The notes below the pieces were generated by a model that saw only the letters and a list, made by a program, of their open reading frames with translations, was not told the DNA's origin and did no database searches. Positions 1 to 20,506 of a stretch of DNA of 31,002 bases are shown piece by piece. Source of the stretch: a virus. Both the position numbers and the translations under genes were made by a program. The stretch covers positions 1 to 31,002 of IMG/VR virus record IMGVR_UViG_3300034418_007886, one strand, 5' to 3'. The number at the start of each line of letters is the position of its first letter. Within the stretch, counting starts at the first letter, position 1.

Positions 1-312
1 GTAATAGTAAGCATATTGACCCATTCTTATTATGTGCCAAAAATCAAAATCTTCATTATTTAGGTTAAACATCTTAACTGCATTTTCTATGTATTTAACA
101 TTGTCTGTATCTGATTTTACCCATTCTAATAAATCATTGTCAGATAGGTTTATTAAACCATCAGCTATGCTGTGAAGCCTATCATTCATAAAACTTTTTT
201 TAAGTTCATCAATAGTGTCGATGTCATATAACATATCCTCAAACTCACTTGCTATCTCGTAGTATTTACCATTTAATTTAATAAACTCTTTATATTTATG
301 TTTTATATTCAT
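1..312 (-). CDS. Small hypothetical phage protein, partial at window edge
   Basis: The first 104 codons of a minus-strand gene are visible; it runs off the left edge with no stop. The protein begins MNIKHKYKEFIKLNGKYYEI and is acidic and helical-looking. Residues 60-95 (LSDNDLLEWVKSD, then NVKYIENAV) line up with residues 94-112 of the gene at 970-1410 (YTYDLTEWLHSD, then NVYYLDKAI), so the two look like paralogues. I do not recognise a function. The start is supported by the shared leader upstream (dual hairpin, then AGTAATAATTTATAGGAG) that also precedes other genes of this arm. Confidence 0.75.
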   Translation of the reverse strand, partial: MNIKHKYKEFIKLNGKYYEIASEFEDMLYDIDTIDELKKSFMNDRLHSIADGLINLSDNDLLEWVKSDTDNVKYIENAVKMFNLNNEDFDFWHIIRMGQYAYYY

Positions 313-340
313 TTTTTAAACTCCTATAAATTATTACTTT

Positions 341-357
341 ATGATTATAAAAATCAT
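341..357 (-). repeat. 17-nt leader dyad (hairpin B), copy 1
   Basis: On the minus strand this reads ATGATTTTTATAATCAT, arms ATGATT/AATCAT around a 5-nt loop. It lies 28 nt before the start codon at 312 and 2 nt after the G.U hairpin at 360-383. It could be an RNA hairpin or a protein-binding dyad; it also contains TATAAT, but no -35 element is seen at the proper spacing. Confidence 0.6.
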
Positions 358-359
358 AT

Positions 360-383
360 CCAAAGGCGCCATAACGCCCTTGG
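360..383 (-). repeat. Intergenic G.U hairpin (hairpin A), copy 1
   Basis: As minus-strand RNA, CCAAGGGCG pairs with CGCCUUUGG (9 bp including one G.U) around the loop UUAUGG. In plus-strand RNA the wobble becomes an A.C mismatch, so the fold favours minus-strand transcripts. It lies between the stop of the gene at 392-886 and the leader of the gene at 1-312. No U-run follows directly, so it is not a classical terminator. Confidence 0.65.
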
Positions 384-391
384 TATAACTT

Positions 392-886
392 CTAAACTTG
401 CTCGTAGGCACTATATTCAATGTTTTCTAAGTCATCTTTTAATAAGTAAGTAAGTACGGCACCTATTGATTGCTCATCACCCATTATTGCTTTATCATAT
501 AATTCATCATAATTATTAGATGTAAATGATATAAAACCACTATAAGAGCTGTAATTTTCTTTTAAAAAGTCTTTAAACTCTTTATTGTTTAGATTATCTA
601 ATGTTTTAAACAATTCTTTTTTATCAATATCAATTACAAAATCTAACTCATCATTACCATAATTGTAAGACTTAGGACTATACCACCCCGTAAACTCTAC
701 CTTTTTAACAAAATCAATGTTTTTAAATATGTCCAAAGACTTGTAAGCCTCTAATATATTGTCCATATACTCGTTATGATCTATTTCATCATCATCATAA
801 TCATCATATTTATGACTTAAATCAAAAATTGTATTGTAAGTGCCATTAAAAAATGGAACTAGATCTGTATTTAATTTTATTTTCAT
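392..886 (-). CDS. Hypothetical phage protein with YSPKSYNYG motif
   Basis: A 164-residue acidic protein. The N-terminal stretch FNGTYNTIF and the central VEFTGWYSPKSYNYGNDEL (about residues 64-82) resemble an uncharacterised family of small phage and plasmid proteins built around Y-N-(T/S)-I and a Y-S-P-(R/K)-x-Y-N-(F/Y) core. I recall that pattern but know of no assigned function. No transmembrane segment or cysteine motif is seen. The start is preceded by GTAATAATTTATAAGG, the leader shared with neighbouring genes, and by hairpins at 913-929 and 932-960. It is probably co-transcribed with the gene at 970-1410 from the promoter near 1443-1471. Confidence 0.8.
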   Translation of the reverse strand: MKIKLNTDLVPFFNGTYNTIFDLSHKYDDYDDDEIDHNEYMDNILEAYKSLDIFKNIDFVKKVEFTGWYSPKSYNYGNDELDFVIDIDKKELFKTLDNLNNKEFKDFLKENYSSYSGFISFTSNNYDELYDKAIMGDEQSIGAVLTYLLKDDLENIEYSAYEQV

Positions 887-912
887 ATAAAACCCTTATA
901 AATTATTACTTT

Positions 913-929
913 GTAACATTAAATGCTAC
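913..929 (-). repeat. 17-nt leader dyad (hairpin B), copy 2
   Basis: On the minus strand this reads GTAGCATTTAATGTTAC. The arms GUAGCAU/AUGUUAC pair with one G.U. The length (17 nt), distance to the start (26 nt) and position 2 nt after hairpin A match the other leader copies, although the primary sequence differs. That suggests structure rather than sequence is conserved. Confidence 0.6.
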
Positions 930-931
930 TT

Positions 932-960
932 GTAGGACATTATGCACCATAACGCCCTAC
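932..960 (-). repeat. Intergenic G.U hairpin (hairpin A), copy 2
   Basis: As minus-strand RNA, GUAGGGCGUUAUG pairs fully with CAUAAUGUCCUAC (13 bp including two G.U) around a 3-nt loop. The inner UUAUG/CAUAA and outer GUAGG/CCUAC segments differ from other copies yet still pair, which is covariation. The plus-strand transcript would have A.C mismatches at the wobble positions. Confidence 0.7.
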
Positions 961-969
961 TAACAGCTT

Positions 970-1410
970 TTAATCTTTTAATAAGTTAAAAACATATTCA
1001 AATACTTCATCAATTGCTATATATTGTGCTGTTGCGAGCAACTCAAAACCATTCTTACAACCATATTCGTTTATTGCTTTATCTAAATAGTAAACATTAG
1101 AATTATCACTATGTAACCATTCTGTTAAATCATAAGTGTAAATGTCAACCATACTATCAACTAGCTCGTGTCTTATATCATCGATATCATCTATATTTTC
1201 AATATCATAGTTTAATAGGTTTTCTAGTATACATAGGTAAGTGCCATATATATAATCCTTGGGATATGAGCCCTCGTGAGCGTCATATACAGATTGTTTT
1301 AAATCTTTATCAGCACTATCTTTTAGAAACCATATTGTTGAATTATCAACTTGTTTTATGATAGGTTCAAAATCATTTATATAACTTTTTATTTTTGTTT
1401 TTATTTTCAT
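970..1410 (-). CDS. Small hypothetical phage protein, paralogue of the gene at 1-312
   Basis: A 146-residue acidic protein. The N-terminus is basic (MKIKTKIKSYINDFEP), with a helical middle (IENIDDIDDIRHELVDSMVDIY) and a conserved-looking C-terminal block YDLTEWLHSDNSNVYYLD through AQYIAIDEVFEYVF. The block is shared with the partial gene at 1-312. The pattern is familiar from uncharacterised phage and plasmid accessory proteins; I know of no function. The start is preceded by GTAATAATTTATAAGGAAG. The gene has its own promoter, TTGACA-17-TATTAT, at 1443-1471, so it probably heads a transcription unit that also covers 392-886 and 1-312. Confidence 0.8.
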   Translation of the reverse strand: MKIKTKIKSYINDFEPIIKQVDNSTIWFLKDSADKDLKQSVYDAHEGSYPKDYIYGTYLCILENLLNYDIENIDDIDDIRHELVDSMVDIYTYDLTEWLHSDNSNVYYLDKAINEYGCKNGFELLATAQYIAIDEVFEYVFNLLKD

Positions 1411-1442
1411 ATAACTTCCTTATAAATTATTACTATAACATT

Positions 1443-1471
1443 ATAATATCATATGTAACAACACTTGTCAA
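1443..1471 (-). promoter_or_regulatory. Sigma70-like promoter for the gene at 970-1410
   Basis: On the minus strand, TTGACA (1471-1466), a 17-nt spacer and TATTAT (1448-1443) give a near-consensus promoter. Transcription is predicted to start near 1436, about 25 nt before the ATG, so a normal leader with Shine-Dalgarno AAGGAAG is made. Confidence 0.75.
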
Positions 1472-1489
1472 TGATATTAAATGCTATAT

Positions 1490-1511
1490 AACGCCCACCT
1501 TAATGAGCGCT
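1490..1511 (-). repeat. Divergent copy of intergenic hairpin A
   Basis: Minus-strand RNA AGCGCUC pairs with GGGCGUU (7 bp with two G.U) around an 8-nt loop. It keeps the GGGCGUUAU element of the other copies, but here it forms the 3' arm. It lies just after the stop of the gene at 1520-1750. The stretch that follows (GCATTTAATATCAT) resembles a decayed hairpin B before the promoter at 1443-1471. Confidence 0.45.
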
Positions 1512-1519
1512 AACAACAC

Positions 1520-1750
1520 TTAATGCCATATGTAGTTATATTCTTTACATTTACTCACAGCGATGTAAAAATGCTCATCATCGTTGCCACCCTCGTAGAC
1601 ATCATAAGAATAAAAAAATGCTAATATATCGCTCTCTGTGTATCCACACATATTAGCTATTAAATTAAAATCGTTGTCATTTTTATATACAGATTTTAGT
1701 TCTAATTTTTTAACTATTTTATTTTTTATAGGTTTAAACTCTTTAATCAT
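1520..1750 (-). CDS. Small hypothetical protein
   Basis: A 76-residue protein with a basic N-terminal third (MIKEFKPIKNKIVKKLELK) and an acidic, aromatic C-terminal part containing IANMCGYTESDILAFFYSYDVYEGG. No family is recognised. It has no own -35/-10 pair; the leader has the dual-hairpin arrangement (1777-1793 and 1797-1828), then AGTAATAATTTAATAAGGGG. It is probably read through from the promoter at 2466-2494. Confidence rests on the shared leader and ribosome-binding site rather than homology. Confidence 0.7.
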   Translation of the reverse strand: MIKEFKPIKNKIVKKLELKSVYKNDNDFNLIANMCGYTESDILAFFYSYDVYEGGNDDEHFYIAVSKCKEYNYIWH

Positions 1751-1776
1751 ATTTACCCCTTATTAAATTATTACTA

Positions 1777-1793
1777 ATGATTTTAAAAATCAT
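1777..1793 (-). repeat. 17-nt leader dyad (hairpin B), copy 3
   Basis: On the minus strand this reads ATGATTTTTAAAATCAT, arms ATGATTT/AAATCAT. It sits 26 nt before the start codon at 1750 and 3 nt after hairpin A (1797-1828), the same geometry as the other copies. Confidence 0.6.
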
Positions 1794-1796
1794 ATT

Positions 1797-1828
1797 CAAA
1801 GGCATTTTAAAGCATTAAAACGCCCTTG
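1797..1828 (-). repeat. Intergenic G.U hairpin (hairpin A), copy 3
   Basis: As minus-strand RNA, CAAGGGCGUUUUAA pairs with UUAAAAUGCCUUUG: 14 bp, two of them G.U, around the tetraloop UGCU. The apical UUUUAA/UUAAAA pairs replace the UUAUG/CAUAA of copy 2, a compensatory change. It is followed by AAUAUGAUUUUUA rather than a direct U-tract. Confidence 0.7.
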
Positions 1829-1837
1829 ATATAACTT

Positions 1838-2062
1838 TTAATCAAAGTCCTTTATGTCTATAAGCTCGTAGTATTCATTAAAAAAGCACTCTTTAACCTC
1901 GTAGCTTTTATTGTAGCCTAACGCCTCTAACTCTTTTATAAAGTCATCTTTACCGCTAAAAATAGGGTTTTTAACCTTTATTAAACCTCTTTTATGATCA
2001 CCATTAAACTCATAAACAGAATATAAACCGCTTTTTAAATCTTTATTTAAATAAAAAATCAT
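1838..2062 (-). CDS. Small hypothetical protein starting MIFYLNK
   Basis: A 74-residue protein beginning MIFYLNKDLKSGLYSVYEF with a C-terminal KDDFIKELEALGYNKSYEV segment. The layout (MI-x-x-LNK, Ser-Gly-x-Tyr, a beta-rich middle, then a helix ending in GY) parallels the protein at 2147-2425, so the pair may be distant paralogues. No function is recognised. The start is set by ATAAGGAGTAAATA before the ATG, and the leader contains the dual hairpin at 2090-2135. It is probably in one unit with 2147-2425. Confidence 0.7.
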   Translation of the reverse strand: MIFYLNKDLKSGLYSVYEFNGDHKRGLIKVKNPIFSGKDDFIKELEALGYNKSYEVKECFFNEYYELIDIKDFD

Positions 2063-2089
2063 TATTTACTCCTTATAACTTGTTACTTT

Positions 2090-2106
2090 ATGATTATAAA
2101 AATCAC
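2090..2106 (-). repeat. 17-nt leader dyad (hairpin B), copy 4
   Basis: On the minus strand this reads GTGATTTTTATAATCAT, with arms GUGAUU/AAUCAU (one G.U). It lies 27 nt before the start codon at 2062. It is nearly identical in sequence to copy 1, and has the same geometry as the other copies. Confidence 0.6.
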
Positions 2107-2110
2107 ATTA

Positions 2111-2135
2111 CAAGGCGTTAGCGATATAACGCCCT
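2111..2135 (-). repeat. Intergenic G.U hairpin (hairpin A), copy 4
   Basis: As minus-strand RNA, AGGGCGUUA pairs with UAACGCCUU (9 bp, one G.U at the same relative position as in copies 1 and 3) around a 6-nt loop. It is located between the stop at 2147 and the leader of the gene ending its start at 2062. Confidence 0.65.
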
Positions 2136-2146
2136 ATATCTAACTT

Positions 2147-2425
2147 TTATTTAATGTACTCCTCCACCTCTTTTATGGCGTCTGGCTCACTTTTAAAGCC
2201 CTTACGTTCATCACCCTTTAGCTGTCCGTATCTGTGGTAGCCGCTTATATTTTTATAGCCTTTGCTCTTTAAAGGTTCTATAACTCTATCCTCGCTACCA
2301 TAAAGGCCGCTAAAGTTGATTGTTTTATAGCTCTCGCTGTCTTTTATGATTGTTAGAGTAAAATACTCACCGCTACAACCATAGACGCCAGCGCTGTAGC
2401 CAACCTTGTTTAAAATGTAGATCAT
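2147..2425 (-). CDS. Small hypothetical protein starting MIYILNK
   Basis: A 92-residue protein. I place the start at the ATG at 2425, preceded by ATAAGGAGTTTAAAA. The frame stays open to an ATG at 2494, but that region is the promoter. The protein begins MIYILNKVGYSAGVYGCSGE and ends with a helix, SEPDAIKEVEEYIK. The layout is similar to the gene at 1838-2062 (MI-x-x-LNK start, GY near the middle), a possible distant paralogue. No function is recognised. The gene is first in a unit driven from 2466-2494. Confidence 0.75.
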   Translation of the reverse strand: MIYILNKVGYSAGVYGCSGEYFTLTIIKDSESYKTINFSGLYGSEDRVIEPLKSKGYKNISGYHRYGQLKGDERKGFKSEPDAIKEVEEYIK

Positions 2426-2465
2426 TTTTAAACTCCTTATATTTAAAACTTGTATACTATACATA

Positions 2466-2494
2466 AATATACTATATATAACTAACAATGTCAA
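2466..2494 (-). promoter_or_regulatory. Sigma70-like promoter for the gene at 2147-2425
   Basis: On the minus strand, TTGACA (2494-2489), a 17-nt spacer and TATATT (2471-2466). The spacer begins TTGTTAGTTATAT, closely matching the spacer of the plus-strand promoter at 3908-3935 (TATGTTAGTTATG), so the two may belong to one regulated class. Confidence 0.7.
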
Positions 2495-3000
2495 TACCCT
2501 ATATAATTATATTGATCTTAATTTTAAAAATAGTGCAATAAAACGCCCGCAAGATGTAACCCTATATATATAGTAATACTATTATACCCTTATACCTTTT
2601 TTATTCTTTTTATTGTTTTAACCTTTTTTATTGTTGTTACCTTTTTTTATGCTTTTTTTAAAACCTTTTTACGCGTGTTGTTACCTTTTTACGCTTTTAA
2701 AATAGGCTTGTGTATAGTTTTACCCACGTCCAGCCCTTGCTTTTACTTATGACACTTTACCCATTTTTTAAATAAAAACGCCTTAAAACTCAATTTTACG
2801 CCTTCCTTTTTACATTAAAACCCATAAAAAACCCGTAAAAACCCTATATATCTTACTTATATTATATATAAAAATGATATAAAAGTAACTTATAGTAAAA
2901 AAATCATAAAAATTAAAACATTGATACAACGGGTAAAAGTCTTAATCGCTACTGCGTGCAGTACAAAGAGCAACGCAACCTATAGTAATGTAATAATAGG
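2495..3000. other. Gene-free AT-rich stretch with repeats, possible origin or control region
   Basis: No convincing coding region is found on either strand. The stretch holds an iteron-like cluster (2594-2690), further copies of CCTTTTTAC and ACGCCTT-type words to about 2810, very AT-rich DNA around 2840-2910, and a small dyad TACTGCGTGCAGTA at 2950-2963. An easily melted region next to iterons is typical of replication origins, but no replication gene is in the window to test this. Confidence 0.4.
2594..2690 (-). repeat. Iteron-like cluster of AAAAAGGT words
   Basis: Five copies of AAAAAGGT (minus strand; ACCTTTTT on the plus strand) start at plus positions 2594, 2621, 2639, 2663 and 2683, spaced 18-27 nt apart. 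Two of them extend to AAAAAGGTAACAACA. Even in AT-rich DNA the GGT with a fixed A5 prefix and the repeated extension are notable. This could be an origin iteron array, a regulator-binding array, or low-complexity drift. Confidence 0.45.
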
Positions 3001-3031
3001 CAATAAAAAGCCCCCTATTGTAAGGGGGCTT
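3001..3031 (-). terminator. Rho-independent terminator after the gene at 3039-3596
   Basis: On the minus strand, AAGCCCCCT pairs perfectly with AGGGGGCTT (9 bp) around a 6-nt loop and is followed by TTTTTATTG. It begins 8 nt past the stop codon of the gene at 3039-3596, isolating that gene from the genes downstream. Confidence 0.85.
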
Positions 3032-3038
3032 AATATCT

Positions 3039-3596
3039 TTAATCGGTTATACTATCAATATAAGCTTTAGCGCTTGCTAGTGCGTCATCATCATCATAAA
3101 TAGATACGCAACTATCTATAAGATCGTGGCTTACGTTACCGCAACAACTACAGGTATTATCTTTTAATACTTCATAAGCGTATACATCGCCATTAATATA
3201 TTTATTATATAGATCTAACTCATACTTATAGGCTTTGATTATATTCTTTTTATGCTTTTTTATACCCATTTCTCTTATATTGCCGTCTGTTGTGGCTATA
3301 ACGCCTAAAACGCCGCTATCAAAGGTACAGCTAAAAGAACCTAATGACAAACTTACGCCACTATGTATATAAGCATAGATAGGCATAATATATTTGTACC
3401 CACTAGACTTTAAGTCTTTTATAAGTTCATCTATATCATCGCCTTTAGATATATCACTATCATACCATTCAAAGTTATAACGCCTATGATTTAGGAATAG
3501 ACAACTCACGTTGCTATTTTCACGTGGAGAATACGCGTATTCATCGTAGCTCACTATAATTTTATAACCTTTATATTCCTCATTATGTACTTCCAT
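3039..3596 (-). CDS. Uncharacterised phage/plasmid protein with SPRE..HRRY..DSG signature
   Basis: A 185-residue acidic protein. The order of motifs matches a widespread family of unknown function that I recall from phages and plasmids: an N-terminal YKIIVSYDE, then SPRENSNVSCLFLNHRRYN (about residues 24-42), PIYAYIHSGVSLSLGSFSC and TFDSGVLGVI (about 76-102), IREMG, then a helical part with YNKYINGDVYAYEV. A CSCC pair near residue 149 and a C-terminal DALASAKAYID helix follow. The family is usually an early or accessory gene. It has its own promoter (3650-3677), ribosome-binding site (AATAAGGAAT) and terminator (3001-3031), so it is a single-gene unit. Confidence 0.85.
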   Translation of the reverse strand: MEVHNEEYKGYKIIVSYDEYAYSPRENSNVSCLFLNHRRYNFEWYDSDISKGDDIDELIKDLKSSGYKYIMPIYAYIHSGVSLSLGSFSCTFDSGVLGVIATTDGNIREMGIKKHKKNIIKAYKYELDLYNKYINGDVYAYEVLKDNTCSCCGNVSHDLIDSCVSIYDDDDALASAKAYIDSITD

Positions 3597-3649
3597 AATA
3601 TTCCTTATTAAATTGTTAAACTGCTACTTATATATATAAGTATAGATAT

Positions 3650-3677
3650 ATAATATCATAATGTTATGTAATGTCAA
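3650..3677 (-). promoter_or_regulatory. Sigma70-like promoter for the gene at 3039-3596
   Basis: On the minus strand, TTGACA (3677-3672), a 16-nt spacer and TATTAT (3655-3650). The GATATTAT around the -10 also occurs in the promoter at 1443-1471. Transcription is predicted to start near 3643, just before a 16-bp palindrome that would lie in the leader. Confidence 0.7.
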
Positions 3678-3771
3678 TAGGTTATATATCTATATATAAT
3701 AGGGTACGCGTGTAAAAAATATAAGGGTAGATATAAGAACGTAAAAAAATATATACGTATATATAAGGTAT

Positions 3772-3804
3772 AGGGGGCAACGTGGGGGGGGCAAGCCCCG
3801 CGCG
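3772..3804. other. GC-rich patch with G8 run and GGGGCAAGCCCC dyad
   Basis: A roughly 33-bp GC-rich island in very AT-rich DNA. It contains GGGGGCAA twice (about 14 bp apart), a run of eight G at 3784-3791, the dyad GGGGCAAGCCCC at 3788-3799 and a CGCGCG end. It could be a packaging (cos/pac) site, an origin element or a protein-binding site; none can be shown from sequence alone. Confidence 0.35.
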
Positions 3805-3858
3805 AATATATAAAGGAATAACATCCACTGTTCCCCACACAGCCGAAACCATTCCTAT

Positions 3859-3893
3859 ATATGACAAAGTGATTTTTGGATATGACAAATGAT
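3859..3893 (+). repeat. Direct repeat ATATGACAAA upstream of the rightward promoter
   Basis: ATATGACAAAGTGAT (3859-3873) and ATATGACAAATGAT (3880-3893) start 21 bp apart, about two helical turns. They lie 15-50 bp upstream of the -35 box at 3908. Same-face spacing upstream of a promoter is what a dimeric activator or repressor site would look like. Confidence 0.4.
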
Positions 3894-3907
3894 GAAAGCA
3901 CATTGTA

Positions 3908-3935
3908 TTGACATATGTTAGTTATGTGATATATT
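3908..3935 (+). promoter_or_regulatory. Rightward sigma70-like promoter giving a leaderless start at 3942
   Basis: TTGACA (3908-3913), a 16-nt spacer and TATATT (3930-3935). Exactly 6 nt separate the -10 box from the ATG at 3942, so the expected first transcribed base is the A of the start codon. There is no Shine-Dalgarno. The spacer shares TGTTAGTTAT with the minus-strand promoter at 2466-2494. Confidence 0.7.
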
Positions 3936-3941
3936 GTGTGT

Positions 3942-4274
3942 ATGTTAGATTTATTTATAGGGAATCCTTCAGTATTACCATTAAGAATATTTATGCTGTT
4001 TGCATTTATGTACGGCTTCTCAGAGAGAGTTAGGTCAGCTACTGATTCATCAGCTAGGTTATTACTAAAAGCCTCTCAGAATCTAATTTTAGGGGTCTGG
4101 TGGGTAATAAAATATCCTGCGTATATTGCATTGTGGATAGGTATGAATGTAATCTTCCCACTAACCTTTTTAATTGGAATAGGTATGATGATTTTCTTTT
4201 TATTACCAATACTTGCTTATGGGGTATTTGAAGCCATAGTAGTCGTTACTAAATTATTTTTATTTGGAGTATGA
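3942..4274 (+). CDS. Small integral membrane protein
   Basis: A 110-residue hydrophobic protein. I see three or four membrane segments: about residues 12-25 (PLRIFMLFAFMYGF), 47-65 (NLILGVWWVIKYPAYIALW) and 70-90 (VIFPLTFLIGIGMMIFFLLPIL), followed by an amphipathic C-terminal VVVTKLFLFGV. The start at 3942 is chosen because it follows the promoter directly; a GTG at 3936 would lie at the -10 end. It is the first gene of the rightward operon. Its function is unknown; a holin or superinfection-exclusion role is possible, but unsupported by any motif. Confidence 0.7.
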   Translation: MLDLFIGNPSVLPLRIFMLFAFMYGFSERVRSATDSSARLLLKASQNLILGVWWVIKYPAYIALWIGMNVIFPLTFLIGIGMMIFFLLPILAYGVFEAIVVVTKLFLFGV

Positions 4275-4279
4275 GAAAC
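4245..4279 (+). repeat. Duplicated junction segment, copy 1
   Basis: This 35-nt stretch, the tail of the gene at 3942 plus the following start region, matches 4616-4650 at 31 of 35 positions. It marks the left end of a tandem duplication that produced the genes at 4282 and 4642. Confidence 0.75.
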
Positions 4280-4281
4280 AT

Positions 4282-4614
4282 ATGAAAAACAAAAGAAGAA
4301 GTAAGAATTGCGTAAACCATAGGGCTACAGAAGCAGTACTAATATTTTTTGTAGGTTACATAATGCTAGTTCCACTAGCAGAGTATGGCCTATTAAATAT
4401 TTTTGATAAGTGGGGAGCACCAGGTTTACCAATAGTTTTTGTACTTTTAACTGCTTGGTACTACCCATATACTACTTTTAATAAAAGTTTAATAGGTTCA
4501 GCATTATCTTGCCTATTTTTATTGTTCTTCTTTTCTAATCCTCTTGGTGGTGTATTACTTATTATTTGTATCTGTCTAGTATATTTAATTTATTCAGAAC
4601 TCACAGGCTGGTAG
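4282..4614 (+). CDS. Membrane protein, first of a tandem pair
   Basis: A 110-residue protein with a basic N-terminus (MKNKRRSKNCVNHRATEA) and membrane segments at about 17-34 (AVLIFFVGYIMLVPLAEY), 49-65 and 74-105. It aligns along its length with the protein at 4642-4971: both have NHR-x-TEA, the FVG and LVPL motifs, EYGLL-x-IFDK and SNPL-x-G. The start at the ATG at 4282 follows GGAG by 12 nt; a TTG at 4264 is in frame but less likely. No function is known. The cytoplasmic basic tail and multiple helices would suit a phage membrane effector or holin-like protein, but this is inference. Confidence 0.7.
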   Translation: MKNKRRSKNCVNHRATEAVLIFFVGYIMLVPLAEYGLLNIFDKWGAPGLPIVFVLLTAWYYPYTTFNKSLIGSALSCLFLLFFFSNPLGGVLLIICICLVYLIYSELTGW

Positions 4615-4615
4615 T

Positions 4616-4650
4616 GTTATTAAATTATTTTTATTTGAAGTATGAAAAAG
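4616..4650 (+). repeat. Duplicated junction segment, copy 2
   Basis: Near-identical to 4245-4279. Here it is non-coding up to the ATG at 4642, whereas in copy 1 it encodes the VTKLFLFGV tail of the gene at 3942. This fixes the direction: the duplication unit carried the end of the upstream gene with it. Confidence 0.75.
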
Positions 4651-4971
4651 AGTTATATAAATCACAGACCCACAGAGGCATTGCTCATAATTTTTGTAGG
4701 TTGCATAACCCTAGTACCACTGGGAGAGTATGGTTTGTTAGATATTTTTGATAAGTTGGGTATGCCAAAAGCACCAATAATTTTTGTACTCTTTACTGCT
4801 TTAAACTATTTAAACTTTAGTTTTTGTATAGCCCTCATACGCGGAGCATTATACACTCTATTTTATTTGTACTTTATATCTAATCCACTTAATGGTGCAA
4901 TACTTTTAATATGTTTCTTCCTTTGTATCTTCCTTGCATATTACTTTTACTTAAAACTCACAAAGTCATAA
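4642..4971 (+). CDS. Membrane protein, second of a tandem pair
   Basis: A 109-residue hydrophobic protein, a paralogue of the preceding gene by tandem duplication. Shared blocks: INHRPTEALLIIFVGCITLVPL, GEYGLLDIFDKLGMP, IIFVLFTAL and ISNPLNGAILLICF. Three or more membrane segments are visible, with a short basic N-terminus and a C-terminal YYFYLKLTKS. There is no strong Shine-Dalgarno (GAAG close to the ATG), so it may depend on translation of the upstream gene. Keeping two divergent copies suggests a variable or dosage-related membrane function. Confidence 0.7.
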   Translation: MKKSYINHRPTEALLIIFVGCITLVPLGEYGLLDIFDKLGMPKAPIIFVLFTALNYLNFSFCIALIRGALYTLFYLYFISNPLNGAILLICFFLCIFLAYYFYLKLTKS

Positions 4972-4974
4972 TGA

Positions 4975-4980
4975 TATAAT
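4975..4980 (+). promoter_or_regulatory. TATAAT box 6 nt before the terminase start
   Basis: TATAAT at 4975-4980 is followed by 6 nt and then the GTG start at 4987. No convincing -35 box (TAAAAC at the expected place) and no Shine-Dalgarno are seen. It fits the leaderless late-promoter pattern found at four other starts in the window. Confidence 0.5.
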
Positions 4981-4986
4981 CACTTT

Positions 4987-6306
4987 GTGAAAGTTAAACT
5001 ACACAAAGGCCAATACAAAGTCGTAACATCTCCTAAAAGATTTAAGGTAATTGTAGCTGGTAGACGTTGGGGTAAATCAGTTTTAGCAAGAATGTGGTTA
5101 TTCAAAAAGGCTATGGATACACCAGGCACTTATTGGATTGTAGCTCCAACCTATGGTCAAGGTAAAGAAATCCATTGGAAACAAGGACTTCTTAGCGAAA
5201 TACCCAAATATGTAATCAGAACAAAGAATGAGCAAGAACTTGAGATGGTACTTGTTAATGGTAGCCGTATAGCAATTAGATCAGCAGAAAATCCAGACAG
5301 ATTAAGAGGTGTTAAGTTAAATGCCCTTGTAGTAGACGAGATAGCTAGTATAAGAAATTGGAGATGGTTATGGGAAGAGGTATTAAGAGCAACCCTAACA
5401 GACTATGAATCACCTGCACTCTTTATTAGTACCCCAGCAGGGTACAATCACTTCTTTGAATTGTATCAAAGGGGGATAAAAGGTAGTGATAAGTACAATG
5501 AAGACTACGAAAGTTTCAGATTTACAAGCTATGATAACCCAAATGTACCATCAAAAGAGATAGATAAGGCAAAAGAATCACTTACAGAAGACACATTTTT
5601 ACAAGAATATATGGCAGAGTTCAAGACATTTACAGGTCTTGTGTATAAAGAGTTCCAAAGAGAGGTTCACGTAGTAAAACCCTTCAAAATACCAAGAACT
5701 TGGAGAGTATTTAGGGGTATGGACTTTGGTTCTAACAACCCAACAGTGTGCCTATGGGTAGCATTTGATGAAGATGACAACGCTTGGATAATAGATGAGC
5801 ACTATGAACAGGCAGAAACCATAGATTTTCACGCAGGACAGATAAATGCGAAGACATCTACCCCAATAGCAGGTACTTATGGTGACCCTACAGGTACTCA
5901 ATGGCTAAGAGAGTTTGCAAAAAGGGGGGTACATATTAGTAAAGCAAACAAAGAAACAGGAACTACCCGTCAGCATTGGGTTTTGTACGGTATTAACCTA
6001 GTAAAAGAGAGATTAAAAATAAAACCAGGTCATTTTGTAGACAATATACCTATGGAAGATTCAGCAGGTATGCCTAGAATGTTCGTATTCAACAACTGCA
6101 AACACCTAATACAAGAGTTTGAGTCATATAGGTGGAGAGAGAAGCTACCAACTGCACCACAAGACTTGAATGAACCCGATACTCCAGAAAAAGCAAACGA
6201 TCACGCTATGGATGCACTAAGATATGTGATATGTTCTTACAAAGGTAAGAGGAAGACTACTGTATTTGAGCAATGGAAACCAAAGCAATGGAGGATTGGT
6301 ATATGA
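4987..6306 (+). CDS. terL: Terminase large subunit
   Basis: A 439-residue packaging motor. The N-terminal ATPase has Walker A GRRWGKS at residues 25-31 and Walker B LNALVVDEIA with the acidic pair at about 117-118, followed by an FISTPAG coupling motif near 147-152. The C-terminal RNase H-fold nuclease has RGMDFGSNNPTV (catalytic Asp near 246), IIDEHYEQ (about 268-275) and NDHAMDALRYVI (about 404-415). Length is normal for the family. It cuts concatemeric DNA and pumps it into the prohead through the portal. The GTG start is the first codon after the TATAAT box. No small terminase is recognised in the window; the gene before it is a membrane protein. Confidence 0.97.
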   Translation: MKVKLHKGQYKVVTSPKRFKVIVAGRRWGKSVLARMWLFKKAMDTPGTYWIVAPTYGQGKEIHWKQGLLSEIPKYVIRTKNEQELEMVLVNGSRIAIRSAENPDRLRGVKLNALVVDEIASIRNWRWLWEEVLRATLTDYESPALFISTPAGYNHFFELYQRGIKGSDKYNEDYESFRFTSYDNPNVPSKEIDKAKESLTEDTFLQEYMAEFKTFTGLVYKEFQREVHVVKPFKIPRTWRVFRGMDFGSNNPTVCLWVAFDEDDNAWIIDEHYEQAETIDFHAGQINAKTSTPIAGTYGDPTGTQWLREFAKRGVHISKANKETGTTRQHWVLYGINLVKERLKIKPGHFVDNIPMEDSAGMPRMFVFNNCKHLIQEFESYRWREKLPTAPQDLNEPDTPEKANDHAMDALRYVICSYKGKRKTTVFEQWKPKQWRIGI

Positions 6307-6545
6307 CCGATAGCACCAAGCAATATATTGAAATGGTAAAGACACTAGACCCAGAACTTTATGAGATAAAGATAGCTCTACTTGAAACACAGGTAAATCA
6401 CGAGATATTACTACACCTTATTAGAAGTCTTGCACTAATTAAAAGTGGTACAGGGTATGGTGAGATAGCAGTACAGATAAGAAAAGGTAATGTAGGTTTA
6501 GTAAAGGCAACAGAGAACATAGCATTAGATTTACCTATTGTATAA
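6303..6545 (+). CDS. Small hypothetical protein between terminase and portal
   Basis: An 80-residue, mostly helical protein beginning MTDSTKQYIEMVKTLDPELYEIK. The start ATG at 6303 overlaps the terminase stop (ATGA), so it is translationally coupled; an in-frame ATG at 6273 inside terL is less likely. The middle ALLETQVNHEILLHLIRSL looks like a long amphipathic helix. No family is recognised. Its stop overlaps the first of two TATAAT boxes that precede the portal. It might be a packaging or portal-associated factor by position only. Confidence 0.65.
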   Translation: MTDSTKQYIEMVKTLDPELYEIKIALLETQVNHEILLHLIRSLALIKSGTGYGEIAVQIRKGNVGLVKATENIALDLPIV

Positions 6546-6550
6546 TAGTG

Positions 6551-6556
6551 TATAAT
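6551..6556 (+). promoter_or_regulatory. TATAAT box upstream of the portal leader terminator
   Basis: TATAAT preceded by TAGTG, with a second TATAAT at 6541-6546. Transcription is predicted to start near 6563 and would make a 38-nt leader ending in the terminator at 6576-6600. The same TAGTGTATAAT plus terminator plus ATG layout occurs at 20441-20509. Confidence 0.5.
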
Positions 6557-6575
6557 AAATGTAAGTTAGAAACTT

Positions 6576-6600
6576 GGCACCTATTATTGGTGCTTTTTTT
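6576..6600 (+). terminator. Rho-independent terminator abutting the portal ATG
   Basis: GCACC (6577-6581) pairs with GGTGC (6589-6593) around a 7-nt loop, followed by seven T (6594-6600). The portal ATG is the very next base. It could end transcripts from the terminase unit or attenuate transcripts from the TATAAT at 6551. Confidence 0.75.
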
Positions 6601-8586
6601 ATGCCAAAAAACAAGAAAACATTAAAAGGAACATCAGAAGAATTAGATATATTATCGCAAGTGTTAGGACACTATGACCTTGCAAAAGAAGACTTAGATA
6701 TTAGAAGACCAGACTTTGATAGAAAAGATGAATTATTTAGGTCATACATTGACGAGAGTAAGTGGCCATACCAATCTCTTGTATTTGACCCAAGAGTTTA
6801 CACATCTATATTTGAAAAAACATCAAGATTACTTGCAAGAAAACCAAAAGGAAGACTTGTACCAAGAGAGAGTGGGGATACATTAGGAGCATATGTTTCT
6901 AACGAGCTACTAAACTTTCAATGGGATGACAACGAGAGAATAGCAAATATGCCAATGGTTGCGAAATGGGGACTAATGGATCAGAATGCCCGTAAGTACG
7001 GAGCATCATTTGCACTTGTTAAGTGGCATTATGAAACAATAGTTGATAGAAAAACCAAAAAGAGAAAGACATACTATGATGGCCCAGACTTTATACCTTG
7101 GAACAACAGAGATGTTCTCTGCGACCCATCGCACCCTACAATAAAGAATTGGATACAACTAAGAGATTATGTATCCATACAAGATTTAAAGAATGTAAAC
7201 GACACAGCAAAAACAAAACCTGTGTATAAAAACTTAGACCTTTTAATGGAGTCAATCTATGAAAAGGGTGGGGATACTAGAGATAGTAACTACACAAGTA
7301 AAAACCTAGCAATTAAAAACCTAGACGATAAGTTAGGTAAAGATGAGGTATTTAGAACTGTTGAAATAGTTACTGAGTACAGAAAAGATAGGTGGATAAC
7401 ATTTGCACCAAAGCACGGGGTTATTTTAAGAGATATTGAAAACCCATACGACCACAACCAAATACCTGTGGTCTTAATGAAATATTATCCAATAGATGAC
7501 GACATCTATGGTTTATCTGAAATAGAACCTGTTGAGAAATTGCAAAAAGCAATTAACGCATTAGTCTGCCAATACATAGATAGTGTAAATATGGGTCTTG
7601 CTCCTATAGTAAAAGTTAGAAGTACAGGTGTCGAAATGCACACATTAGAGTGGGGTCCTGGTAAGAAATGGATTATGGATGATCCATCAGATGTAGTTGC
7701 ACACGAGCAAGGTACAGCAGGTATTGCAGAGTTCACATCAACATATAGATTTTTAGTAGCAGCCTTGCAAGAAGCACTAGGTGAAACAAGTGCAGGTATT
7801 AGTAATGTAATGCCAGGCTCTGGTGATAAAACAGCAACAGAGGTAAAAGACCTTGCCTTGCAAAGAACAGCAAGGGATAACTACAACCAAATCTTCTTAT
7901 CAGAAGCACTTAAAAAACAAATGCTCTTATGGCACAAGATGAATGTACAATTCTATTTCAATCCAGAAGAATCACAAAAGGTCATTAGAGTTGTAGGTAA
8001 AGAAGCAGTTAAATATTTTGAAAAAATAGGATTAGAAGGATACACACTAAGTGCAGAGGCAGCAGACCTACTAGCAAGTCCAGAGATAGCAGACCTTGGT
8101 ATTGCACCAGAAGAACTACAAACATTATCAACCCCTGTTGAAACAGAAGAAGGTACTGTAAGTAAGTTCACAATGGAACCTGGAACTAATGAAGGGTACT
8201 TAATAGTAGAACCAGAAGACTTATCTGGAACTTATGACTACATACCAGATATTGAAAGTATGTCTGTACCTAGTGAAGCAGAGGCATTAAGGTCACAAAG
8301 AGAGTTAATACAAACAGTATTAAATCCAGCAGTAGACCAAAGGCTAATGTCACTTGGATACCAATTAGATTTAAAAGAGTTATTAGTAAATTACTTTGAA
8401 CAACTTGGTTTAAAAGATGCTGAAAAGTATTTCACCAAGGGTTCAATGCAACAAGGAATGATGCCAAATGAAACTATCACAGGAGCAGGACCGATTGCTA
8501 AAGGAAGCTCTCTTGGTTCAGAATATGACCTCTACGGAAGGATGGCAGAAGGTAATCAAACCCCTACTGACCAGCAAATTATCTAA
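6601..8586 (+). CDS. Portal protein
   Basis: A 661-residue portal of the type found in podoviruses. The N-terminal part has DRKDELFRSYIDESKWPYQ and a segment describing mapped residues YTSIFEKTSRLLARKPKGRL. The core has IPWNNRDVLCDPSHPTIKNW, IPVVLMKYYPIDDDIYGLSE, then EPVEKLQKAINALVCQYID, and SGDKTATEVKDLALQRTARD, a typical portal stem/crown helix pattern. The dodecameric ring at the capsid vertex receives terminase and the tail adaptor. The start at 6601 follows the terminator T-tract without any Shine-Dalgarno; upstream codons would run through the hairpin. The C-terminal 40 codons overlap the next gene in another frame. Confidence 0.92.
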   Translation: MPKNKKTLKGTSEELDILSQVLGHYDLAKEDLDIRRPDFDRKDELFRSYIDESKWPYQSLVFDPRVYTSIFEKTSRLLARKPKGRLVPRESGDTLGAYVSNELLNFQWDDNERIANMPMVAKWGLMDQNARKYGASFALVKWHYETIVDRKTKKRKTYYDGPDFIPWNNRDVLCDPSHPTIKNWIQLRDYVSIQDLKNVNDTAKTKPVYKNLDLLMESIYEKGGDTRDSNYTSKNLAIKNLDDKLGKDEVFRTVEIVTEYRKDRWITFAPKHGVILRDIENPYDHNQIPVVLMKYYPIDDDIYGLSEIEPVEKLQKAINALVCQYIDSVNMGLAPIVKVRSTGVEMHTLEWGPGKKWIMDDPSDVVAHEQGTAGIAEFTSTYRFLVAALQEALGETSAGISNVMPGSGDKTATEVKDLALQRTARDNYNQIFLSEALKKQMLLWHKMNVQFYFNPEESQKVIRVVGKEAVKYFEKIGLEGYTLSAEAADLLASPEIADLGIAPEELQTLSTPVETEEGTVSKFTMEPGTNEGYLIVEPEDLSGTYDYIPDIESMSVPSEAEALRSQRELIQTVLNPAVDQRLMSLGYQLDLKELLVNYFEQLGLKDAEKYFTKGSMQQGMMPNETITGAGPIAKGSSLGSEYDLYGRMAEGNQTPTDQQII

Positions 8587-9275: not shown

Positions 9276-9406
9276 TGCCATTTAAGAGCGAGAAACAAAG
9301 GAAGTATTTATGGGCAAACAAACCAAAGATAGCAAAAGATTGGACTGCAAAGTATGGAAGCAAACCAAGAAAAAAGTCTACAAGAGCTACCAGAAAGTCA
9401 AAGTAA
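9275..9406 (+). CDS. MPFKSEKQR-type small basic protein
   Basis: A 43-residue protein beginning MPFKSEKQRKYLWANKPKIA, then KDWTAKYGSKPRKKS and a basic tail. Proteins starting MPF-(K/R)-SEKQR-x-(Y/F)-(L/M)-(W/H)-AN-(K/E)-P are very common in tailed phages and I recognise the pattern well, but the function is unknown. The start overlaps the previous stop (TAATG). It is shorter than most gene callers report and would probably be missed. Confidence 0.8.
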   Translation: MPFKSEKQRKYLWANKPKIAKDWTAKYGSKPRKKSTRATRKSK

Positions 9407-9584
9407 TTTTTGGCAAGGTGATAAGCATACTAAAGAAATAGTACATAAAGAGTGCGACCACAGCTTTGTGCATAGGAGTGCAAGAGAGATTGAGTGTGAA
9501 AAGTGCAGAGCTGGGTTTGTACTAACAAGAGAGTGGCACATTAAAAACAAAAAATTGTATTATAAAGATAAGCTTGTATTTTGA
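9354..9584 (+). CDS. Small protein with a Cys/His zinc-binding-like motif
   Basis: A 76-residue protein. The core is ECDHSFVHRSAREIECEKCR (about residues 33-52), with Cys34, His36, Cys49 and Cys52, followed by AGFVLTREWHIKNKKLYY. A (C-x-H ... C-x-x-C) core followed by G-x-x-L/T and a W-x-(I/L) then (K/H)-LY beta hairpin is familiar from small zinc-finger proteins in phage head modules. It overlaps the preceding gene by 53 nt; a later start would lose only disordered sequence, so the true start is uncertain. Its stop codon overlaps the base of the structured RNA at 9584-9663. Confidence 0.7.
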   Translation: MEANQEKSLQELPESQSNFWQGDKHTKEIVHKECDHSFVHRSAREIECEKCRAGFVLTREWHIKNKKLYYKDKLVF

Positions 9585-9663
9585 TAGCTGAGTGCGTGGT
9601 AATTTAGATCCCGTACTTGGCTATTAGGCTATAAGCCTAAATGCCGAGTGGTATGCGTCCACT
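9584..9663 (+). ncRNA. Candidate structured RNA with alternative stems, upstream of scaffold
   Basis: The 120-bp gap before the scaffold gene folds strongly. AUAGCUGAGU (9584-9593) can pair with ACUUGGCUAU (9615-9624) over 10 bp with two G.U. Alternatively ACUUGGC (9615-9621) pairs with GCCGAGU (9643-9649) and encloses a perfect 7-bp hairpin UUAGGCU/AGCCUAA (9624-9640). A third stem, AGUGG/CCACU (9647-9663), competes with the second for AGU. Mutually exclusive stems before a ribosome-binding site (AAGGAC at 9695-9699) are typical of a cis-regulatory RNA. It does not fit a tRNA, and I do not recognise a known riboswitch or ribozyme core. Confidence 0.55.
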
Positions 9664-9704
9664 ATAAAAAGCGACAGTAATAAATTGGCAAACAAGGACA
9701 AAAT

Positions 9705-10478
9705 ATGTCAGAAGAAAATAGGGCAGAACAAACACCTGAGAGTACACAGGTAGAGCCAATGCCTAGCTCAGAACAAACTCAGGAAGCAGAAGTTAAAACT
9801 GAAGAAGTGGTGCAAGAACCTATAAAGGAACAAGCAGTAACGGAACAGGGGGTAACTGAAGCAGACTTAGAACTTTCTAGGGAGGTTTCAAACCGAACAA
9901 GAGAGCAGTTCAACAAATTAAGAGAGCAGTTAAACTACTACAAGAACCAGAATACTGCTAATGAGCAAAAGTTGAAAAGTCTTTATGACGAGGATACAGG
10001 TCTTATTAACAAAGATGGTTTGAATAGTTTAAGTCAAACTGCTTACAGCGCTGAACAAAGAGCAAGAGCTGCTGAGGATAAACTCAACAGGTATCTTGAC
10101 TCTCTTCAAGAGAGGGAAGCCTATCAAGAGTTCCCTGAGCTTGACCCAAATAATGCAGGTTTTGATAGGGACTTGCATAAAGCTGTAAGGGGTTACATTA
10201 CAGATTCAATGGTTAATCCAATGGATTACGGTGGTAAGGAATTAACTATGGCTGAAGCTGCAAGGCTAATTACTAACATAGCAAATAAAAAGGCTAAGAA
10301 AGTAGAAAAGCAAGTAGCAAAAGAAGTAGTTAGTAAGTTAACACCAAAAGAAGAAGCTTCATTAGAAGCAAAGGGGAAATCAGATAGAGCCCCAATTGAT
10401 ATGGATAACATAAGAGAAAGAAGCCGAAAAGGTGACAGACTCGCAACCATAGAAAGATTAAAAAGACTATCGCAGTAG
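9705..10478 (+). CDS. Probable head scaffolding protein
   Basis: A 257-residue, highly charged protein placed directly before the major capsid gene. The acidic N-terminal 55 residues (rich in E, Q, T, P) are probably disordered. Residues about 60-130 form coiled coil (VSNRTREQFNKLREQLNYY and AEQRARAAEDKLNRYLDSLQ). A conserved-looking EFPELDPNNAGFDRDLH segment follows, and the C-terminus is basic and helical (IERLKRLSQ), as in scaffolds that contact coat protein. It would guide capsid assembly and then leave. The Shine-Dalgarno is AAGGAC, 5-8 nt before ATG. There is no recognisable protease domain. Confidence 0.85.
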   Translation: MSEENRAEQTPESTQVEPMPSSEQTQEAEVKTEEVVQEPIKEQAVTEQGVTEADLELSREVSNRTREQFNKLREQLNYYKNQNTANEQKLKSLYDEDTGLINKDGLNSLSQTAYSAEQRARAAEDKLNRYLDSLQEREAYQEFPELDPNNAGFDRDLHKAVRGYITDSMVNPMDYGGKELTMAEAARLITNIANKKAKKVEKQVAKEVVSKLTPKEEASLEAKGKSDRAPIDMDNIRERSRKGDRLATIERLKRLSQ

Positions 10479-11419: not shown

Positions 11420-11467
11420 CTAATCAAGGGCCCTGATTAGTGCTAGGCAGTCACCTCGGCTGCCTAG
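11420..11467 (+). other. Two adjacent hairpins after the capsid gene
   Basis: CTAATCA pairs with TGATTAG around AGGGCCC (11420-11440). CTAGGCAG pairs with CTGCCTAG around a 9-nt loop (11443-11467). Neither is followed by a T-tract, so they are not standard terminators. They could protect the 3' end of the capsid mRNA, mark a processing site or attenuate transcription. A TATAAT box begins 2 nt after the second stem. Confidence 0.65.
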
Positions 11468-18932: not shown

Positions 18933-20108
18933 ATGGCACAATTAACTAGCAGAACAGAACTAACAACACCAGCAGATGATGATTTACTGCACATAATAGA
19001 TAAGTCAGATACAACTGATGGGGTTAATGGTACTTCAAAAAAGATACAAAAAAGCAATTTAATTTCAGGATTAACTGCAAGTGATATTACAGATTTTGAT
19101 ACAGAAGTTGCAAACAATTCAGCAGTAACACTAAATACTGCAAAGGTAACAAATGCAACACATACAGGTGAGGTTACAGGATCGGGGGCATTAACAATAT
19201 CCGACAATGTTGTAGACGAGGCAAATCTAAAACTAGATACAGCACCAACTAACGACTATATTTTAACAGCAGATAGCACAGCAAGTGGTGGTATGAAATG
19301 GGCAGAAGCACCAGCAAGTTCTCCACTCACTACAAAAGGTGATTTATACACATACGATACAGATAATGCCAGATTACCAATAGGTACAGATGGACAAATG
19401 CTAGTAGCAGATAGTTTAGAAACCACAGGACTTAAATGGGTAGATACAGGAATTGATGCAATAAATATAAATGTTTTTACTGCAAATGGAACTTGGACAA
19501 AACCAACAGGACTAAAATACATAATAGTTGAAGTCATTGGTGGTGGAGGTGGTGGTGGAGGTGTCGAAGGCGACACAGGTGATACTGCTAACTCTGGTGG
19601 AGGTGGTGGTGGTGGATACACCCTTAAAAAAATACTAGCATCTTCACTTGGATCAACAGAAACAGTAACAGTAGGAGCAGGTGGTGCAGGTGGTACAGGA
19701 AACTCAGGTGGAACAGCAGGTGGTACTTCTTCATTTGGCAGTCATTGCTCAGCAACAGGTGGTAGTCAAGGTGGTGGAAATGGACCATCCCCATTAGTTC
19801 CTAGAAGAGGTTTAGAGTGTGGCGCAGGTGGTGTAGGCACAGGTGGTGATGTAAATGGTACAGGGCAAACAGGACCAAATGGATTTAACCTTGCGACTGC
19901 TGGATATGGACAAGTATCTGGTGGTGGTGGTGGTTCAATGTATGGTGGTGGTGGTGCTCAAAAAGTATCAGTAAACCAAAATGGAAATGACGGAATTGGA
20001 TATGGTGGTGGTGGTAGTGGTTGTGCTACTTACGATAGTGTTGCCAACTACACAGGTGGTGCAGGTACAGATGGAGTTGTAGTAGTTTATGAATATATGG
20101 AGGCATAA
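18933..20108 (+). CDS. Tail fibre with glycine-rich adhesin domain
   Basis: A 391-residue protein. The N-terminal half has repeated fibre-shaft words (SRTELTTPADDDLLHIIDKS, LTASDITDFDTEVANNSAVT, LTTKGDLYTYDTDNARLPIG). From about residue 180, VFTANGTWTKPTGLKYIIVE leads into a long glycine-rich domain with runs such as GGGGGGGG and YGGGGSG, ending VVVVYEYMEA. This matches the Gly-rich fibre domain family whose known relatives fold as stacked polyglycine-II helices (for example the tip adhesin of phage S16). Inter-strand loops between Gly runs are the receptor-contact candidates. The immediate neighbour is a tail-fibre chaperone. Confidence 0.85.
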   Translation: MAQLTSRTELTTPADDDLLHIIDKSDTTDGVNGTSKKIQKSNLISGLTASDITDFDTEVANNSAVTLNTAKVTNATHTGEVTGSGALTISDNVVDEANLKLDTAPTNDYILTADSTASGGMKWAEAPASSPLTTKGDLYTYDTDNARLPIGTDGQMLVADSLETTGLKWVDTGIDAININVFTANGTWTKPTGLKYIIVEVIGGGGGGGGVEGDTGDTANSGGGGGGGYTLKKILASSLGSTETVTVGAGGAGGTGNSGGTAGGTSSFGSHCSATGGSQGGGNGPSPLVPRRGLECGAGGVGTGGDVNGTGQTGPNGFNLATAGYGQVSGGGGGSMYGGGGAQKVSVNQNGNDGIGYGGGGSGCATYDSVANYTGGAGTDGVVVVYEYMEA

Positions 20109-20478: not shown

Positions 20479-20506
20479 ACCGACTCTTAATGGGTCGGTA
20501 TTTTTT
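20479..20506 (+). terminator. Rho-independent terminator abutting the ATG at 20507
   Basis: ACCGACTC pairs with GGGTCGGT (8 bp with one G.U) around TTAAT, followed by ATTTTTT. The ATG of the next gene is the base after the T-tract. It would end the fibre-unit transcripts or attenuate a leader RNA started at 20446. Confidence 0.8.

Follow-up and report, generated by a model that had tools for sequence, protein, structure and literature searches.

Stop-codon-anchored stem-loops repeated between small genes of a tailed phage resemble the gene-shuffling cassettes of T4-like phages

Five consecutive gene junctions on the minus strand of a phage genome share one architecture, built at most of them around a long RNA stem that is predicted to begin at the stop codon of the upstream gene and that shares one of its strands with a second, alternative hairpin ahead of the next gene. 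The sequence analysed, a virus record of 31,002 bases (IMGVR_UViG_3300034418_007886), is referred to below as the window. We put at about even the chance that this is a repeated RNA cassette, working like the PeSL (promoter early stem-loop) cassettes of T4-like phages reportedly described by Arbiol in 2010 and Comeau in 2014, and that its long stem is most likely cut by an RNase III-type enzyme.

The structural genes of the phage lie on the plus strand from ~4 kb onwards and include those for the large terminase subunit, the portal, the major head protein and tail proteins. The terminase is closest to those of Vibrio phages of ~37 kb and others, at 34% identity or less, and the capsid protein matches phrog_1328; judged by these terminase and capsid matches, this tailed phage is not T4-like. 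The first 3.6 kb carries seven small open reading frames (ORFs) on the minus strand, named here by their start coordinates, none of which has a named function, and PADLOC and NCBIfam searches gave no match to the small proteins or to the element between them. These ORFs are probably early genes, because of their opposite orientation, their predicted sigma-70-type promoters, and the relatives of the protein of gene 3596 (3039-3596, minus strand; phrog_6186), which lie close to the ends of two large genomes, those of Bacillus phage vB_BcoS-136 and Sphingobium phage Lacusarx. The proteins behind the repeated leaders mostly differ from one another, as an earlier note on this DNA had held, although BLASTP relates those of genes 312 and 1410 to each other (E 1e-7); paralogy of P0005 and P0006 is not supported (E 0.13). 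A near-identical contig, IMGVR_UViG_3300006867_004467 (L003 below), agrees with the window at 99.7% over 348 to 7201.

The earlier note had described four leaders, each with two hairpins, A and B, followed by a AGTAATAATTTATAAGG-type sequence. All four are present on the minus strand at the positions given there, with a weak leader variant at gene 2062, and a fifth junction that had been missed (1520->1410) has the same stem together with a sigma-70-type promoter match. At four of the five junctions (2147->2062, 1838->1750, 1520->1410 and 392->312, each written as the end of one gene and the start of the next) the predicted fold is a single long stem starting at the first base of the upstream stop codon, so that the two-hairpin layout described earlier is the alternative and not the ground state. 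The stem is 20-26 bp long in four copies, with a small interruption ~10-12 bp up, and ~19-23 bp in the fifth, and the A hairpin previously placed at 2111-2135 is the upper part of the stem that follows gene 2425. At the remaining junction, 970->886, most of the stop-anchored stem is possible but for two A.A mismatches, and A+B is the more stable fold there. At the 1520 junction the arms of the upper stem are very unlike the others and include GGGCGTTA on the 3' side, yet this stem is of similar length and stands in the same place. Coordinates of all these features are given in Table 1.

Table 1. Genes, stems, hairpins, leaders and promoter matches of the minus-strand region (MFE and antisense values in kcal/mol)
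Feature	Position	Strand	Remarks
Small ORF P0001	1..312	-	Cut by window edge; related to P0003; different gene here in L003
Small ORF P0002	392..886	-	phrog_37559-like; 3' end is a divergent allele in L003
Small ORF P0003	970..1410	-	
Small ORF P0004	1520..1750	-	
Small ORF P0005	1838..2062	-	
Small ORF P0006	2147..2425	-	Relatives in other phage contigs, these without the element
Stop-anchored hairpin after gene 2147-2425	2097..2149	-	MFE -21.2, z -5.0, antisense -11.7
Stop-anchored hairpin after gene 1838-2062	1784..1840	-	26 bp, one bulge; MFE -26.4, z -9.2, antisense -10.7
Stop-anchored hairpin after gene 1520-1750	1478..1522	-	20 bp, one bulge; MFE -21.8 (62 nt), z -5.3, antisense -3.4
Stop-anchored hairpin after gene 970-1410	920..972	-	Two A.A mismatches in lower stem; MFE -22.6 (62 nt), z -4.7
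Stop-anchored hairpin after gene 392-886	348..394	-	MFE -24.5, z -6.3; last base 348 is the end of the L003 match
Hairpin B	2090..2106	-	Alternative pairing, strand 2 with strand 3
Hairpin B	1777..1793	-	
Hairpin B	913..929	-	Four pairs changed on both sides relative to other copies
Hairpin B	341..357	-	
Leader AGTAACAAGTTATAAGG	2071..2087	-	Weak variant, with Shine-Dalgarno
Leader AGTAATAATTTAATAAGG	1758..1775	-	
Leader AGTAATAATTTATAAGG	1418..1434	-	Behind promoter, near expected transcript start
Leader AGTAATAATTTATAAGG	894..910	-	
Leader AGTAATAATTTATAGG	323..338	-	
Predicted sigma-70-type promoter, gene 1410	1443..1471	-	TTGACA-17-TATTAT; 11/12 match, TG before -10
Predicted sigma-70-type promoter, gene 2425	2466..2494	-	TTGACA-17-TATATT; 11/12 match
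Predicted sigma-70-type promoter, gene 3596	3650..3677	-	TTGACA-16-TATTAT; 11/12 match
GGGCGTTTTATTGC motif upstream of gene 2425 promoter	2535..2548	-	Without stop-anchored stem

Folding of the 62 nt from each upstream stop was compared with 500 dinucleotide shuffles per junction, and all five junctions fold better than every one of their shuffles (z -4.7 to -9.2). When both strands of the 31 kb were scanned in 60-nt windows for stems of at least 19 bp at -19 kcal/mol or lower, seven places were returned, and five of these are the five consecutive junctions at 2147, 1838, 1520, 970 and 392. Of the seven copies of the motif GGGCGTT in the window, six lie in the minus-strand gaps, one each ahead of genes 2425, 2062, 1750, 1410, 886 and 312, and the seventh is at 26763. 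In four of the five junctions the motif starts ~13 nt beyond the upstream stop. Its spacing is thus kept relative to the gene before it, so that the hairpin is as much a feature of that gene's 3' end as part of the next leader.

Few other strong stems occur in the window. On the plus strand, a long stable hairpin at 9572-9640 (-44.7 kcal/mol over 9560-9712) overlaps the stop codon of ORF 9354-9584 and is unrelated in sequence to the junction stems, and a strong stem of ~23 bp (-21.7 kcal/mol) at 19883 lies within the tail fibre region.

That the function lies in the minus-strand RNA, as had been proposed, agrees with the composition and the strand bias of the stems: their pairs comprise 26 G-C, 59 A-U and 23 G.U (23/108), and the sense stems, at -20.3 to -25.6 kcal/mol, are far stronger than the antisense ones at -3.4 to -12.1 kcal/mol. 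This bears on the possibility that B, and A with it, act instead in double-stranded DNA as palindromic operators or recombination sites. Such a role would account for the overlap of B with a -10-like TATAAT in two copies, for the B arms flanking the promoter at 1410 and for the conservation of GGGCGTT in whichever arm, but the arms vary with their pairing kept, where an operator should conserve its sequence, and the G.U pairs fall on the sense strand while the antisense folds are much weaker. We consider a DNA-level element very unlikely. In integron attC sites, which are associated with an integron integrase, RYYYAAC precedes GTTRRRY over ~55-140 nt; an attC site had been raised as a candidate by GGGCGTTA and was rejected by inspection, as the order and size of the half sites here are unlike it: in the A copies the GTTA side comes first, with the TAAC side a short way behind.

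To describe the alternative pairing we refer to the 5' arm of the lower stem as strand 1, to its 3' arm as strand 2 and to the stretch ahead of the leader as strand 3. In the predicted folds strand 2 pairs either with strand 1, to complete the long stem, or with strand 3, to form hairpin B, and as B uses the 3' strand of the long stem, B and the lower stem are mutually exclusive. Cognate arms pair better than swapped ones (ranking 1/120 permutations for the upper stem, 2/120 for the lower stem and 6/120 for B), and these ranks, together with the pairs changed on both sides, bear out the earlier observation that the A arms vary while pairing is kept. In the four-copy alignment ~92% of cells are paired in both structures, against 36-52% in slid controls, and pairs changed on both sides number four for the long stem and six for A+B. 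The variants of strand 2 in the 886 and 2062 copies keep B more faithfully than they keep the lower stem. These compensatory changes support both the long stem and hairpin B, short of proof, and may reflect few events because the five copies come from one lineage and represent about two sequence types.

The exclusive pairings could be read as a switch that senses translation, in which a ribosome terminating at the upstream stop would cover the first 12-15 nt, disrupting the lower stem and allowing B to form. The stem does begin exactly at the stop, and its G+C core lies ~13 nt further on in four of the five copies, which is about the reach of a terminating ribosome; strands 1, 2 and 3 change together; and when the first 12 nt are blocked in silico, the promoterless copies 2062, 1750 and 886 adopt A+B. 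However, the 312 copy refolds differently, the accessibility of the Shine-Dalgarno site follows no consistent on/off trend between the two states, and no output is evident. We find it improbable that the ribosome opens the stem in this manner and that translating a gene thereby decides what becomes of the mRNA segment behind it.

Where promoters can be recognized they match the sigma-70 consensus closely (Table 1). At 1410, and also in L003, the promoter match sits between strand 2 and strand 3, and the common AGTAATAATTTATAAGG leader falls approximately at the transcript start expected behind it. The four other junctions contain no sigma-70 match of at least 9/12 with the -10 ahead of the start codon. 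This distribution has to be set beside the view that the stems are intrinsic terminators, partial or full, which end each message so that transcription is restarted from promoters. A simple scan, which found 6 sites where 1.6 are expected, does flag three of the five copies as terminator-like (383, 1829 and 2138, minus strand), GATTTTTA stands on the 3' side in three copies, and the promoter matches at 1410 and in L003 lie behind a stem as restarting would have it. The T run, however, comes ~6 nt past the upper stem and is itself paired within the A+U-rich lower stem, and the copies at the 970 and 1520 junctions have CATTTA alone. Strong termination would silence four genes because their junctions lack a consensus promoter behind the stem; for this reason, and because the clear, canonical terminators of the same phage (3008-3031 and ~20480-20506) are built differently, we prefer processing as the role of the stem and regard termination as rather unlikely. 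A perfect hairpin with 8-bp arms, CTAGGCAG...CTGCCTAG, is also present directly after the major head protein gene (11443-11467, plus strand) and is without a T run.

Comparison with L003 gives a view of how the region changes. The window and L003 have 23 differences, and 16 of these are clustered at 399-458, where gene 886 has its final codons, whereas the adjoining stem at 348-394 is identical in both; the two sequences part beyond 348, which is the last base of the stem. Past this point L003 carries a consensus sigma-70 promoter sequence, TTGACA-17-TATAAT, together with the same leader and an ORF of 57 codons that was not found in the window. Because the stem is identical, with 16 differences beside it and divergence starting at 348, it is better conserved than the adjacent codons and forms the edge of the exchanged segment. 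It is possible that the divergent end of L003 is an assembly chimera, as it is only 293 bp long and lies at the contig edge, although the tract of 16 differences lies outside the repeat and argues against a simple misjoin. Taken as sequenced, L003 supports the cassette idea with a gene exchanged at a stem, in one case only. The mobile or shuffled cassette suggested by the earlier note is thus upheld to the extent that the stem is found with another promoter and gene, but the swap is seen within one lineage, and the searches of more distant relatives found no copies.

The distribution of the element was followed with a covariance model built from the four A+B leaders and run on the window, L003 and five other phage records, with relatives sought through the terminase, capsid and early proteins. 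The model matched the four window copies, the 1410 leader (E=0.0019, through the leader half) and the corresponding set in L003. No further copies appeared in the five other phage records, two of which are relatives with a 70% identical capsid protein; in the relatives other than L003 the element is absent by the covariance model, and the rest of the two relatives is without the small genes. Scans of viral and genome contigs for the exact leader, for the motif plus leader and for the left arm gave, beyond L003, single matches without the remaining element, which we read as chance. Rfam gave no match above the gathering score in the window, with weak sub-threshold matches alone in 1-4000. So far, the element is private to one lineage.

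Although the element had been taken as entirely unrecognised, the promoter/stem-loop cassettes of T4 are close to it in anatomy. The PeSLs of T4-like phages combine a stem-loop with an early promoter, are dense between small variable genes and are tied to gene shuffling (PMC4503421). The likeness lies in several copies of a stem-loop between small ORFs, at five junctions here, and in a point of gene exchange, seen here in one case as the stem, promoter and different gene of L003. The promoter beside the stem-loop is matched here at the 1410 junction and in L003 and was not found at four window junctions. Two further features differ from the PeSLs so described: here the stem begins with the stop codon and cannot coexist with its partner hairpin, and the carriers of PeSLs are T4-like myoviruses whereas the terminase and capsid place this phage elsewhere. 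The element looks like a new version of the T4 PeSL shuffling cassettes. Since the phage falls outside the T4-like group and the promoter is missing from most copies, we do not classify it as a PeSL.

Three other systems offer partial parallels. The early message of T7 contains five RNase III sites (PMC4858673). As there, duplexes stand between consecutive small genes on one transcript, and the stems here reach the at least ~20 bp expected of an RNase III substrate, a likeness drawn by analogy from predicted duplexes. We know of no alternative hairpin using the 3' strand in T7. In Cluster K mycobacteriophages, the 13-bp SAS/ESAS sequence GGGATAGGAGCCC recurs where translation begins in many non-structural genes unrelated to one another, roughly half of which have an imperfect 17-bp inverted repeat upstream (PMC3203893). 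A short repeated sequence at the starts of unrelated genes, with an inverted repeat upstream, is common to both, but the leader here is AGTAATAATTTATAAGG and not GGGATAGGAGCCC, the spacing differs and the stem is anchored at the stop of the preceding gene. The haloarchaeal virus HGTV-1 has a promoter-like box and inverted repeat before most ORFs in one part of its genome, and these motifs are likened to PeSLs (PMC3950731). That is a different virus with an archaeal TATA box, and stop-codon anchoring is not mentioned for it in the text consulted (PMC3950731).

We propose that in each copy the stop codon of the upstream gene would open a stem of ~20-26 bp whose 3' strand could alternatively pair with the next stretch to give hairpin B, just upstream of an AU-rich leader that is unstructured and contains a Shine-Dalgarno site. 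Copies without a promoter would depend on read-through, while the others would have a sigma-70 promoter between the two B strands. The stem may insulate each gene, and an RNase III-type cut within it, by analogy with the T7 early operon, would free strand 2, so that B could form at the new 5' end and cap the mRNA of the next gene. The DNA common to the gene ends would let small genes be exchanged by homologous recombination. An arrangement of this kind would show how phages keep small, fast-changing genes interchangeable, and in the sole exchange seen the RNA element at the gene end has changed less than the preceding codons and borders the swapped segment. If the stop-codon stem and B truly compete, this would be a new means of insulating or coupling neighbouring genes in one message. 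An extension that we hold to be improbable is a modular switch, in which the terminating ribosome would switch the intergenic RNA between a duplex open to processing and a B hairpin protecting the following gene, the self-contained module travelling with the swapped genes.

Repeats of other kinds also occur in the window. A non-coding stretch at 2590-2920 contains imperfect ACCTTTTTTATT-type and 28-nt repeats and is possibly a replication origin region. On the plus strand at 4264-4971, two small ORFs lie side by side as tandem duplicates, at 71% over 261 nt and at 92% in a common 36-nt start region.
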